The position numbers were made by a program, and so were the translations under genes. The notes under the pieces are model-generated. The model saw nothing but the letters and a program-made list of their open reading frames with translations. It was not told the DNA's origin and did not search any database. Positions 14,905 through 21,314 of a stretch of DNA of 64,000 nt are shown one piece after another. Origin of the DNA: Granulosicoccus sp. (GTDB taxonomy: Bacteria; Pseudomonadota; Gammaproteobacteria; Granulosicoccales; Granulosicoccaceae). The stretch lies in contig JALZUD010000050.1 of NCBI GenBank assembly GCA_023301725.1, positions 1-64,000 of the forward strand, given 5' to 3'. Each line of letters starts with the position of its first letter. Positions within the stretch are counted from its first letter, which is position 1.

Positions 14905-15396
14905 ATGAAACCCTTACTGTCTTTAAGTGTGGTCTTGGCAGGAGCTCTGCTGGGCGCCTGCTCCAGTGACGATACCACCACTTTTCTGGACGTCCAGAAC
15001 GATGCCATTAATCTGACATTGCCCGAACTGCTGATTGATGCCAGCGATGATGGCCTGTTTGACGATTCGCTCAGGCCTGTAGTCACACTCTCAAACGGCG
15101 TGACAGTTAGCATCAATCAAGGTGTTGGAAACCAATTTTCTGGCAGTGTCAATTTGCCAGCCAATGCCTCGTATGAAGTCACCGTCACATGGGTTGAAAC
15201 CTTCCAGCAACTCACCTTCCCGCTGGCCAGTCGCATCGCAACGATAGAGGTGGCAGCAGACGGCACCGCTGTAGAGGTGCAGAATGGTTTGGATACGTCC
15301 TACCTGTTCGACTTCGATTTTGATGGAGACGGACTTTCCAATTTTGATGAACGCACTGACAACGACCCTGACACAGACCCCCTAAGGTTTGATTGA
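14905..15396 (+). CDS. Lipoprotein with C-terminal Ca-binding-like acidic motif
   Basis: Lipobox LLGACSSD; C-terminus DFDFDGDGLSNFDERTDNDPDTDPLRFD resembles thrombospondin-type-3/EF-hand-like repeats. Confidence 0.75.
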   Translation: MKPLLSLSVVLAGALLGACSSDDTTTFLDVQNDAINLTLPELLIDASDDGLFDDSLRPVVTLSNGVTVSINQGVGNQFSGSVNLPANASYEVTVTWVETFQQLTFPLASRIATIEVAADGTAVEVQNGLDTSYLFDFDFDGDGLSNFDERTDNDPDTDPLRFD

Positions 15397-15406
15397 AGCC
15401 GAATAC

Positions 15407-17164
15407 CTAATCAGAACTTGCTATCAGCATGGATTTGATCGATCGCAGATTTTGACTCTCGGCTAGCAACACTGGATTTATTCCGTTACTGTCAGTGATC
15501 CGCGTGTTAGCTCCCGCTCTAATTAACGATCGAACCAGGCGTTGTTGTCCACGTTGTACAGCTGCAAATAATGCAGTTCGGCCCAACAAGTCCTGAGCGT
15601 TCAAATCTGCGCCCTTGGCGACCATCTGTAACGCCAAATGTTCGTAGCCTTTTTTCGTTGCCTCGATAACAGGGTATGAACCATTATTGGATTGATGATT
15701 AACATCCGCACCGGCATCAACAAGATATTTTGCCACTACAGGCTGCTCCATTGCGATTGCCATAGCCAGAGGACTACGACGCTCCTCATCGACAAAGTTA
15801 ATATCGGCATCGGCGGCTATCAGCTGCCCAACAAGCTTCAACAATGATTCTTGCGGTGCTTCCAAAATAGCGTTAAGTATGATGCTTTTATCTAATTTAC
15901 CCTCGAGATTCTGGTGACGCACCAATTCTCTTAGCACCGCGTAACAGCCAGAACTCACTGCGACATCGATGGGGATTTTTCCTGCGTAAGGCAAGGTTAC
16001 GTCAAGGTCGCTGTGCTCTTCCAGAATTTTAGTCACAGCCTTTGTATCGCATTCTTGTATCTGAGCTGCAAAATGCGCTTGAGTGGCAATCTGGAAACTT
16101 GGCTTGCTTTCTAGGTGCTCTCTTAGTGCCAAAGCACACGCAGGCGGGCGTATGAATTCAACCAACCGTTTTTCGTCAATCATTTCCGGAGAGCCTAATT
16201 CACCCTCATTGGACAGCATGGAACTGAGCCGCTGCACATGACAGCTTTCGATGGCTCCCATATATTCAACATATAGACGCTGCAAACGAGTGTTCTCAGC
16301 TTCTTCATCAACAGCCGCTTCTAATGCAATTGAAGTAACACCTGAAAAGTGTGGATTGAAGCGCGCTGACACCATTAGGACAAACTGCTGACCACCGAGT
16401 CGTTGGTCAGTTATCACGGCATGATCGACAGCACTAAGACCACGATAATCTGTTTGGGTCACCGATGCTCCCTCACTGAGTAACAGCGAGACTATCTCGG
16501 GATGATTGCTGGTAATGGCGACCATCAATGGGGTACGGCGCTCGGAACTGATAGCTGAATTATCAACATCAGCACCACCTGCTATCAGTTGGCCAACGAT
16601 CTCCGTGTTACCCATTTTGGCAGCTAGCATCAAAGGGGTATTGCCTTGAACAATCGTGTTGGGGCTAACACTGCCAGCCAACAGCGATTGCACCTGTGCC
16701 ACATCTTTATTGGCAATCGCATTCATCAACTTGCTTGCGTCAGTCGCAGGTTGATGCGCGCAAGAGGGTTGCAGTTTTGCAAGCACCAAGGGATTAATGG
16801 AGTCACTGGTACAGGTCCAGTTGAGAAGCCCGCTCACCCGACTCACCGATGGCGTGTACGTCATCGCTTGCTCGCCCCGTCTGTCGTTAAAATCTACCTG
16901 CAGCACGCCCCCTCTGTTAACCGTTATTCGCTTGACGCTGACGCCAAAAAGGCTCTTTGGCGGTGGTAGTCCCACGCTTTTGTTATCGCTTGGCATGATG
17001 CCTTCACGAACGAAGTGGTCGGCCACACGCAGTTTCACGTGTGTAGACAAGGTGAAGCCCTCTGACAGCATCGCAGCCTTGACCAATAGCCCGCGCGTAT
17101 GCCAGCTGTTATAGCCACCTATCGCAGCACCTATCATGGCAAGTAATATGATCAGCAGTTTCAC
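15407..17164 (-). CDS. Type IV pilin-like domain fused to ankyrin repeats, single N-terminal TM
   Basis: GTG start at 17164 preceded by GAGAG. N-terminus VKLLIILLAMIGAAIGGYNSWHTRGLLVKAAMLSEGF...VREGIMPSDNKSVGL...VKRITVNRGGVLQVDF...LLNWTCTS...LQPSC is colinear with PilA. Multiple ankyrin repeats follow (NTPLMLAAKMGNTEIVGQLIAGGADVD; RSPLAMAIAMEQPVVAKYLVDAGADVNHQ; RTALFAAVQRGQQRLVRSLIRAGANTR). The ORF track extends upstream to 17260. Confidence 0.82.
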   Translation of the reverse strand: MKLLIILLAMIGAAIGGYNSWHTRGLLVKAAMLSEGFTLSTHVKLRVADHFVREGIMPSDNKSVGLPPPKSLFGVSVKRITVNRGGVLQVDFNDRRGEQAMTYTPSVSRVSGLLNWTCTSDSINPLVLAKLQPSCAHQPATDASKLMNAIANKDVAQVQSLLAGSVSPNTIVQGNTPLMLAAKMGNTEIVGQLIAGGADVDNSAISSERRTPLMVAITSNHPEIVSLLLSEGASVTQTDYRGLSAVDHAVITDQRLGGQQFVLMVSARFNPHFSGVTSIALEAAVDEEAENTRLQRLYVEYMGAIESCHVQRLSSMLSNEGELGSPEMIDEKRLVEFIRPPACALALREHLESKPSFQIATQAHFAAQIQECDTKAVTKILEEHSDLDVTLPYAGKIPIDVAVSSGCYAVLRELVRHQNLEGKLDKSIILNAILEAPQESLLKLVGQLIAADADINFVDEERRSPLAMAIAMEQPVVAKYLVDAGADVNHQSNNGSYPVIEATKKGYEHLALQMVAKGADLNAQDLLGRTALFAAVQRGQQRLVRSLIRAGANTRITDSNGINPVLLAESQNLRSIKSMLIASSD

Positions 17165-17294: not shown

Positions 17295-20222
17295 ATGAAT
17301 ATGCCCGTCAGCCACCCAGCATTCGTTCACGTCCGCAGCGAACATATTCAATCATTGGACATTGAGCTTCACGAGTACCGCCATAGTGTCACCGGCACCT
17401 CTCATATTCACTTAGCCGCTAATAACCCAGAGAACGTATTCCTCGTCGGTTTACGCACAGTGCCCACGGATTCCACCGGAGTGGCTCATATCCTCGAACA
17501 CACCGTTCTGTGTGGTAGTGAGAAGTACCCGGTCCGTGACCCATTTTTCATGATGATCAGACGCTCACTGAATACATTCATGAACGCATTTACCTCAAGC
17601 GACTGGACCGCCTACCCTTTCGCCAGCCAGAACGAAAAAGATTTTTTCAACTTGCTGGATGTCTACCTAGACGCTGTATTTTTCTCCAGGCTGCACGAAC
17701 TTGATTTTGCTCAGGAAGGCCATCGTGTCGAGTTTGAGACGGCAGACGATCCGTCTAGCGATTTGGTTTTCAAGGGAGTGGTGTTTAATGAAATGAAGGG
17801 GGCCATGAGCGCACCAACCAGTGCTCTTTGGCAAACCCTAAGCAAGCATCTGTTTCAAAACAGCACGTATCACTTTAATAGCGGTGGTGATCCTGAAGAT
17901 ATCCCTGATCTGAGCTACCAGCAGCTAAAGGACTTCTACGACACTCATTATCACCCATCCAATGCCGTTTTCATGACCTACGGCAATCTTGCGCCAGATG
18001 TGTTGCAAGCGCGCTTTGAAGATCAGGTACTAAATCGATTCACGAAGCTTGACCGATCAATAAGTGTCGAGCCTGCAAAGCGCTACCATTCACCGGTTCG
18101 CGTGCAGGAGCATTATTCAACACGAGAGGCTGACACCACAAACAAAACGCATATTGTCACAGGCTGGCTACTTGGCGAAAGCATCAATCTGGACGAACGT
18201 TTGCGAGCAAACCTGCTCTCCAGTGTTTTGCTCTCCAACAGTGCGTCCCCACTCATGAAAGCACTCGAGCAAAGTGACCTCGGAAATTCTCCTTCTCCTA
18301 TGTGTGGTGTTGAAGATAGCAACAGAGAAATGGTTTTCGTTTGTGGCTTGGATGGCTCTAATCCCGAACACACAGTGGCTGGAGAGAAACTCATTCTCGA
18401 CACTCTTGAAGCTGTTGCCAGCAATGGTGTTCCACAGGAGGAAGTTGACGCGATGCTTCATCAGCTTGAAATGAGCCAACGCGAAATCAGAGGCGACGGC
18501 ATGCCATTTGGTCTGCAACTTGTACTCAGTGGTTTATCTACAGCGATGCATCGAGGTGACACACTGGCCTCTATTGATCTGGACCCTGCCCTACAGAGAC
18601 TGCGTGAAGATGCGCAAGACCGTGATTTCATTCCTAATCTGATACGCACTCTGCTGCTTGATAATCCACATCGCGTCACGCTGACTCTTGCACCGGATAC
18701 GCAGATTAGCGAGCGACGAGATATTGCCGAGAAAGCACGACTGGCAATGATGAAATCAACCCTCAATGAATCACAGGCAAAAGAAATTGTTGATCACGCT
18801 CAGGCTCTTGCGATGCGACAAACACAGGAAGACGATCCAGAAATTCTTCCCAAAGTGACGCTTGCCGATGTGCCCGCTGATATGCATATTCCCGAAAGCA
18901 CATCGGGCTTGATTAACGACGCGCCGGCCACTTTGTATGCACAAGGCACTAACGGTCTGGTGTACCAACATGTCATTGTTGAGCTACCTGACATGGAGAA
19001 AGAGTTGCAGCAGTTGCTGCCGATGTACACCAATTTTATTGGCGAGTTAGGTTCTGGTGGGCGTGACTACCTGGAGACACAGTCGCTGCAAGCAGCGGCG
19101 ACTGGAGGCGTAGGTGCGTACACGTTGCAACGTGGAGCTATTGACGATGTGCAATCTGTATCAGGATTTCTTGTTGTTTCTGGAAAAGCCTTACTACGCA
19201 ACACGGATACTTTGTCCCAGTTGATGCTCGATACGCTATCCGACGTCCGCTTTGACGAGGTGTCCCGTATCCGCGAGCTTATCGCACAGGTGCGCGCTAG
19301 TCGTGAACAGCGTATTACTGGGAGCGGCCATGTGTTGGCTATGCTCGCCGCTTGTAGTGGTATGAGCCCGACCGCTCGCTTATCGCACGAACTGAACGGA
19401 CTCGCTGGCATAAAGTCGCTTAAGGCGCTGGACGACTCATTAGATGACAAGCAAGTGCTGAAAGAACTTGCTGAAAAGTTTTCTGCCATTCACGACATCC
19501 TGAAAACTGCGCCTAGACAATTTATGGTGGTGGCGGAGCAAGATAATCTGGAGCAGTGTAAGAGTAGTCTGTCGGTCAAGTTTGGCGCCGCACCTGTTGT
19601 GCAATCGATGAAGGCGTTCTCTCCAGAGCCTGTACGCGAGCAGGCTCGACAAATCTGGACAACCAGCACCGATGTTAACTTCAGTGCTCGGGCGTATCCG
19701 ACAGTGCCAAGTTCTCATGACGATACGGCTGCTTTGACCGTCCTAGGTTCGTTTTTGAGAAACGGCTTCCTGCATCGGGCGATTCGAGAAACCGGGGGTG
19801 CCTACGGAGGCGGAGCCTCGCATGATTCAGACACAGCTTCATTCCGTTTTTATAGCTATCGTGATCCGCGCTTGAGTGAGACGTTGTCAGACTTCGACGC
19901 TTCAATTGAGTGGCTGAAAGAGACAAAGCACAATGAACGCGAGCTTGAGGAAGCTGTTTTGAGCGTCGTAAGCTCAATCGATAAGCCTGGCTCACCAGCG
20001 GGTGAAGCTCGTAGCTCCTTTCAAGCTGAGCTGTTTGACAGGACTCGGGAAAAACGACGTGCGTTCCGTCAAAGAATATTGAATGTCAGTCTTGAAGACT
20101 TGAAACGGGTGGGAAACACATACTTTGATCCGGATCATGCAAGCACCGGAGTTGTTACCAATGAAACAACTGCCAACGAGCAAAGTATCAAATCGTTGGG
20201 CTTGAATCTACACAGTTTGTAA
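17295..20222 (+). CDS. M16C family zinc metalloprotease (presequence protease PreP-like)
   Basis: HILEHTVLCGSEKYPVRDPFFMMIRRSLNTFMNAFTSSDWTAYPFASQN (inverted zinc motif HxxEH), 975 aa. Confidence 0.93.
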   Translation: MNMPVSHPAFVHVRSEHIQSLDIELHEYRHSVTGTSHIHLAANNPENVFLVGLRTVPTDSTGVAHILEHTVLCGSEKYPVRDPFFMMIRRSLNTFMNAFTSSDWTAYPFASQNEKDFFNLLDVYLDAVFFSRLHELDFAQEGHRVEFETADDPSSDLVFKGVVFNEMKGAMSAPTSALWQTLSKHLFQNSTYHFNSGGDPEDIPDLSYQQLKDFYDTHYHPSNAVFMTYGNLAPDVLQARFEDQVLNRFTKLDRSISVEPAKRYHSPVRVQEHYSTREADTTNKTHIVTGWLLGESINLDERLRANLLSSVLLSNSASPLMKALEQSDLGNSPSPMCGVEDSNREMVFVCGLDGSNPEHTVAGEKLILDTLEAVASNGVPQEEVDAMLHQLEMSQREIRGDGMPFGLQLVLSGLSTAMHRGDTLASIDLDPALQRLREDAQDRDFIPNLIRTLLLDNPHRVTLTLAPDTQISERRDIAEKARLAMMKSTLNESQAKEIVDHAQALAMRQTQEDDPEILPKVTLADVPADMHIPESTSGLINDAPATLYAQGTNGLVYQHVIVELPDMEKELQQLLPMYTNFIGELGSGGRDYLETQSLQAAATGGVGAYTLQRGAIDDVQSVSGFLVVSGKALLRNTDTLSQLMLDTLSDVRFDEVSRIRELIAQVRASREQRITGSGHVLAMLAACSGMSPTARLSHELNGLAGIKSLKALDDSLDDKQVLKELAEKFSAIHDILKTAPRQFMVVAEQDNLEQCKSSLSVKFGAAPVVQSMKAFSPEPVREQARQIWTTSTDVNFSARAYPTVPSSHDDTAALTVLGSFLRNGFLHRAIRETGGAYGGGASHDSDTASFRFYSYRDPRLSETLSDFDASIEWLKETKHNERELEEAVLSVVSSIDKPGSPAGEARSSFQAELFDRTREKRRAFRQRILNVSLEDLKRVGNTYFDPDHASTGVVTNETTANEQSIKSLGLNLHSL

Positions 20223-20861: not shown

Positions 20862-21314
20862 ATGAAAACTACTGCAACAAAAAAATCAGTTACACGTAAA
20901 AAACCCACTAGTGCAACTGTTAGCACTACTGGAAAAAAGTCATCTGCTGGAAAGGCCAGCGTTAAGACTAAGCGCGCAACCTCTCCAGCAAAAACATCCA
21001 AATCTGCTACAGCTAAAAAAGCCGCTCCTGCCAAACCGGCTCGTAAAGCACCTGCAGCTAAAAAAGCCGCTCCTGCCAAACCGGCTCGTAAAGCACCTGC
21101 AGCTAAAAAAGCCGCTCCTGCCAAACCAGCTCGTAAAGCACCTGCAGCTAAAAAAGCCGCTCCTGCTAAGCCGGCCCGAAAAGCACCTGCTGCTAAAAAA
21201 GCCGCTCCTGCTAAGCCTGCTCGTAAAGCGTCTACAGCTAAGAAACCTGCAGTTGCGAAAAAGAAATCTGTTACAAAAAAACCTGCGATTAAACGCACTC
21301 GCAAGGCTAGCTAA
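20862..21314 (+). CDS. Histone H1-like Lys/Ala/Pro-rich basic protein
   Basis: 150 aa with tandem AKKAAPAKPARKAPA repeats, similar in composition to H1-like/AlgP-type bacterial proteins. Confidence 0.8.
   Translation: MKTTATKKSVTRKKPTSATVSTTGKKSSAGKASVKTKRATSPAKTSKSATAKKAAPAKPARKAPAAKKAAPAKPARKAPAAKKAAPAKPARKAPAAKKAAPAKPARKAPAAKKAAPAKPARKASTAKKPAVAKKKSVTKKPAIKRTRKAS
21012..21236 (+). repeat. Five tandem copies of a 45-bp coding repeat (15 aa AKKAAPAKPARKAPA)
   Basis: Units start at 21012, 21057, 21102, 21147 and 21192; unit gctaaaaaagccgctcctgccaaaccggctcgtaaagcacctgca, with divergence rising towards the 3' units. Confidence 0.92.

Follow-up and report, generated by a model that had tools for sequence, protein, structure and literature searches.

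A leaderless type IVa pilin domain fused to ankyrin repeats in Granulosicoccus

The window analysed here is a 64,000-nucleotide stretch of Granulosicoccus DNA, one of whose genes encodes an N-terminal type IVa pilin domain with ankyrin repeats behind it. The pilin-ankyrin fusion is real and conserved, and the domain combination is apparently undescribed. Most Granulosicoccus genomes carry the gene, and so does one genome out of three from a sister genus. A search for homologues of the same architecture had been suggested in the initial annotation; the set assembled here comprises the window protein and 22 others, 33-86% identical to it, and the Pilin and Ank families were both matched in all 23. 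On our preferred reading, which we hold to be probable, the product is an inner-membrane-anchored, assembly-incompetent pilin-fold protein that offers a periplasmic ankyrin scaffold to a partner. Features of the gene and its neighbours are listed in Table 1; our re-analysis returned the reading frame, strand and start codon called at first.

Table 1. Features of the pilin-ankyrin gene and its two neighbours, in window coordinates
Feature	Position	Strand	Remarks
Pilin-ankyrin gene, 585 aa	15407..17164	-	GTG start 17162-17164, stop 15407-15409; coding 15410-17164
N-terminal hydrophobic helix, residues 1-24	17093..17164	-	Residue 5 is Ile, not Glu; no leader peptide
Pilin domain, residues 1-137	16754..17164	-	PF00114 core at residues 32-130
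Cys118, pilin-type C-terminal disulfide (putative)	16811..16813	-	23/23 homologues
Cys135, pilin-type C-terminal disulfide (putative)	16760..16762	-	23/23 homologues
Ankyrin block A, residues 146-252	16409..16729	-	Missing from G026 and sister-genus G003
Conserved non-repeat segment TDxRLGGxxxxLMVxARxNPxFxG, residues 253-275	16340..16408	-	
Divergent middle segment, degenerate ankyrin-like repeats, residues 295-425	15890..16282	-	Cys308, Cys343, Cys372, Cys407
Ankyrin block B, residues 426-585	15410..15889	-	
Divergent neighbour, M16C/PreP-type peptidase	17295..20222	+	Adjoins the pilin-ankyrin gene wherever the Granulosicoccaceae contig extends far enough
Convergent neighbour, lipoprotein with TSP3-like end	14905..15396	+	

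The pilin domain and its missing leader

Pfam-A matched the Pilin family PF00114 to the core of the domain with 36.4 bits (E 1.1e-8 for the 585-aa protein; curated cut-off, 22 bits). A whole-genome search found PF00114 at three sites, namely this gene and a pair of ordinary prepilin genes side by side on contig C13, which adjoin pilB in a normal pilin-pilin-PilB cluster. When a profile built from the N-terminal domains of all 23 proteins was searched against PDB sequences, the matches included Neisseria PilE (5kua) at E 1.4e-11 and further type IVa pilins with E values as high as 3e-6; below E 1e-5 all were type IVa pilins, and no non-pilin was matched below E 0.3. AlphaFold modelling from five homologous sequences gives a long helix, four strands and C-terminal elements in the pilin order, at a pLDDT of only 54 for the pilin domain modelled alone and 32-48 for that part in the full-length model. 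The first Foldseek match of the low-confidence model (pLDDT 54) was the pilin PpdD, a weak one at E 0.054, so that predicted structure contributes little to the assignment.

Residue register gives a further line of evidence. We aligned mature pilins of other genomes and the genome's own two pilins to the family profile, and in 62 of 62 alignments residue 35 of the family coincided with residue 35 of the mature pilin, the best alignment showing zero net gap between the start codon, taken as mature residue 1, and E35. The start codon therefore stands at the position of the prepilin-peptidase cut, and translation yields a protein of mature length from the outset. Pfam, the PDB profile search and this register agree on a type IVa pilin domain at the N-terminus, as initially proposed, although the motif register given then was six residues off. 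The C-terminal cysteine pair recognised at the same time is present in every homologue (Cys118 and Cys135 here). The long N-terminal alpha1 helix with its hydrophobic first half, the head sequence and the C-terminal disulfide cysteines are thus all found.

What type IVa pilins such as PilE have, and this protein lacks, is the leader, the GFTxxE site and Glu5; conversely, it carries about 450 extra residues of ankyrin sequence on a helix of common length. The prepilin leader and prepilin-peptidase site are absent from all 23 homologues, none of which contains GFTxxE, bearing out the earlier statement that the site is missing. Position 5 is Ile, Leu or Val in all 23 and never Glu, and the length of the N-terminal helix is constant throughout. 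Nearly all homologues start with GTG and the remainder with TTG, never with ATG, and no clear Shine-Dalgarno was found upstream of the start codon in the 23; such starts may reflect deliberately low expression. The frame upstream of the GTG or TTG is not conserved between homologues. A hidden leader read from an upstream start was considered and rejected, since the upstream frames are lineage-specific and some hit a stop within about 8 codons. Measured against modular pilins, the extra non-T4P domain is present and the N-terminal signal motif IPR012902 is absent. The accepted definition of a type IV pilin excludes the protein, which may nonetheless act together with pilins.

Ankyrin repeats, cysteines and cell location

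From residue 146 to near the C-terminus Pfam-A reports Ank_2 at 132 bits together with other Ank models, and the tandem repeats exceed curated cut-offs. The long ankyrin array first described as following the pilin domain does begin at residue 146, but it is not continuous, being interrupted by the divergent middle (about 295-425). The highest mean pairwise identity of any segment, 77%, belongs to the non-repeat stretch at residues 253-275. The ankyrin part is modular: G026 and G003 are without block A, and G022 and G033 are without the middle segment. Models of Dot/Icm effectors also hit the ankyrin region and were rejected, their score of 80 against a cut-off of 600 amounting to generic ankyrin similarity. 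It is reasonable to regard the ankyrins as a binding scaffold.

Downstream of the helix there are six Cys columns, every one conserved, with no stray cysteine in the 23 proteins; 21 of these have exactly six cysteines there and the other two (G022 and G033) exactly two. The neighbouring M16 peptidase of the same genomes has 24 Cys columns, of which 3 are conserved. Six conserved columns without strays point to folding in an oxidising compartment with paired cysteines. AlphaFold secondary structure places Cys308, Cys343, Cys372 and Cys407 in or close to the turns of four consecutive repeat-like units. All four are gone, together with the segment, from G022 and G033, and this joint loss suggests two further disulfides. 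Equivalent turn positions of neighbouring ankyrin repeats are usually about 10 Å apart, so how the middle-segment cysteines would pair is not obvious. Disulfides are likely in both the pilin and the ankyrin domains.

Among the four sequences scanned, no segment other than the N-terminal helix is hydrophobic enough for a membrane span. The initial annotation had placed both domains in the periplasm, a very probable location for which the cysteine pattern and the single hydrophobic helix, a putative signal anchor, give strong though indirect support. Several other ankyrin proteins of the family (L036-L040) seem to start with signal peptides; judged by sequence, periplasmic ankyrins seem common in these genomes.

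Constraint, distribution and proposed role

Compared with its nearest homologue, the whole gene has a dN/dS of 0.062. Taken part by part, the ratio is lowest in the pilin domain (0.023), reaches 0.056 and 0.048 in ankyrin blocks A and B, and is highest in the middle segment (0.129). The gene is old and under selection, and its pilin part is the most constrained in this comparison. Profile searches of 369 gammaproteobacterial genomes and 399 genomes of the phylum (overlapping sets) found two more pilin-ankyrin proteins beyond the family, in two other gammaproteobacterial lineages (G061 and G244). The G061 protein, 572 aa from its likely start, can be aligned to the family end to end and has the pilin cysteine pair only. 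That of G244, 846 aa from its likely start, has a longer anchor and an additional C-terminal part, and the GFTxxE site was found in neither. In a tree of the pilin domain the G061 protein (L118) joins the family with support 88/84, L120 takes no settled place, and a single clade of all pilin-ankyrin proteins is not rejected (AU 0.63), the alignment being too short to decide between one origin and several.

In the mechanism we propose, a type IVa pilin domain that has lost its leader and prepilin-peptidase site, and the ankyrins behind it, would both be periplasmic parts of an inner-membrane protein. The N-terminal Met-Lys and hydrophobic helix would form an uncleaved signal anchor, N-in and C-out; the pilin head would close the usual disulfide Cys118-Cys135, and the four cysteines of the middle ankyrin-like segment would probably form two more. 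Topology, disulfides, non-assembly and a binding role are inferred here; the domains, the missing leader, the register, the cysteine pattern, the conservation and the distribution are observed, and this anatomy is well supported. Without leader, cleavage site and Glu5, polymerisation as an ordinary pilus subunit would not be expected, although tip subunits among the minor pilins can lack Glu5 (PMC10191384), so that its absence alone does not exclude assembly. The fixed stalk, in keeping with the fixed membrane protein proposed in the initial annotation, would hold the ankyrin scaffold toward a putative periplasmic or membrane partner. The pilin head, being so strongly constrained, seems to have a partner as well, possibly one of the components of the type IV pilus machine in the same cell.

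The same constraint could be expected of a processing-independent minor pilin, made at mature length, that would need no prepilin peptidase to join or cap the type IV pilus and would carry its ankyrins at the tip. Acting as tip subunit, cap or regulator, it would link the pilus machine to a periplasmic or surface ankyrin scaffold. The coincidence of start codon and mature residue 1 in 62/62 alignments, the fixed helix length in 23 homologues and the T4P genes of the genome all fit such a role. So do the dispensability of Glu5 in tip-capping minor pilins (PMC10191384) and the wide occurrence of modular pilins with large C-terminal modules (PMC8179133). We consider this, the main rival reading, unlikely all the same, because every modular pilin in the latter survey has a class III signal peptide motif, the gene has no linkage to the pilin-pilB cluster, and Lys2 puts a charge into the helix core. 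Moreover, Granulosicoccus G029 has pilB and a pilin without the pilin-ankyrin gene, and anchor lengths differ in the two other lineages (G061, G244).

Alternatively, the pilin part could be a leftover anchor, with function residing in the ankyrin array alone, as in the ankyrin proteins of these genomes that appear to bear signal peptides. The several apparent signal peptides among ankyrin proteins of the family and the recurrence of pilin heads in non-pilus proteins, for example with an M48 peptidase, agree with this. A leftover would hardly show a lower dN/dS (0.023) than the ankyrin sequence it anchors (0.048-0.129), or be retained where ankyrin blocks are lost, and this explanation too appears improbable.

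Neighbourhood and relation to known systems

In Granulosicoccaceae the pilin-ankyrin gene sits between the M16C/PreP-type peptidase and a CBM9/TSP3 lipoprotein with a membrane partner gene. The lipoprotein is 163 aa long here and in L004, and 415-607 aa in most homologues, with CBM9 in the three scanned; its CBM9 part seems to have been lost in the window's lineage. In G004 and G005 the lipoprotein gene directly adjoins that of the peptidase, leaving an empty site; either these genomes lost the pilin-ankyrin gene or it was acquired elsewhere in the family. The peptidase occurs without a pilin-ankyrin gene in sister genera and, in G061 and G244, away from it. Granulosicoccus G029, G036, G037 and G039 have neither gene, likely through loss as a block in one clade. 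Given the empty sites and the peptidases without pilin-ankyrin gene, synteny is weak evidence of joint function. A functional unit with the adjacent peptidase or the CBM9 lipoprotein would account for the adjacency in all sufficiently long Granulosicoccaceae loci and for the joint absence from those four genomes, but it is highly improbable in view of the sister-genus peptidases, the G004/G005 adjacency, the separate sites in G061 and G244, and a peptidase with no obvious signal peptide whose stray cysteines suggest the cytosol. Farther along the window, at 20862-21314, lies a 150-aa Lys/Ala/Pro-rich, histone-H1-like protein with AAKKAAPAKPARKAP repeats.

The anchored scaffold that we favour resembles modular pilins such as S. 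sanguinis PilB/PilC (PMC8179133), which likewise graft a C-terminal binding module onto a pilin module; those are subunits of the pilus and bear a class III signal peptide, whereas the present protein is without the signal. The survey in that paper, which found modular pilins to be widespread, admitted only proteins with IPR012902, the class III signal peptide motif, and would not capture leaderless cases; the paper's main text does not mention ankyrin. The initial annotation had put this domain combination down as not known to be described, and our literature search likewise found no pilin-ankyrin fusion; searches on leaderless pilin-domain proteins and on Granulosicoccus pilins returned nothing useful. 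A comparable working principle is offered by Bdellovibrio Bd3460, a periplasmic ankyrin protein that binds and inhibits two endopeptidases (PMC4686830). It too is an exported bacterial ankyrin scaffold, its partners being the enzymes it blocks; unlike the pilin-ankyrin protein it is small, has an ordinary signal peptide and lacks a pilin domain.

The pilin head is also a module without the usual N-terminal prepilin leader in M48 peptidase-pilin, zinc-ribbon-like-pilin and DUF2628-pilin proteins, where it is C-terminal; in the pilin-ankyrin protein it is N-terminal and bears the ankyrins. In other genomes of the phylum, L119, L122 and L146 combine an M48 peptidase with a C-terminal pilin (L146 judged by eye). 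In L145 a long low-complexity protein ends in a pilin head, and L147 has a C-terminal pilin head behind an N-terminal stretch resembling DUF4124. C-terminal pilin heads in M48 peptidases, a zinc-ribbon-like protein and others imply that pilin heads are reused outside pili.

Since the leader peptide is how pilins are recognised, surveys of modular pilins miss leaderless ones. The present family points to a broader set of non-pilus pilin heads, and tells us that a leaderless pilin body can persist at precisely the mature length while under strong selection. Here that body is joined to a scaffold that most work has treated as a cytoplasmic module or as part of injected effectors, and the family allows a direct test of the idea that pilins may function independently of prepilin peptidase.
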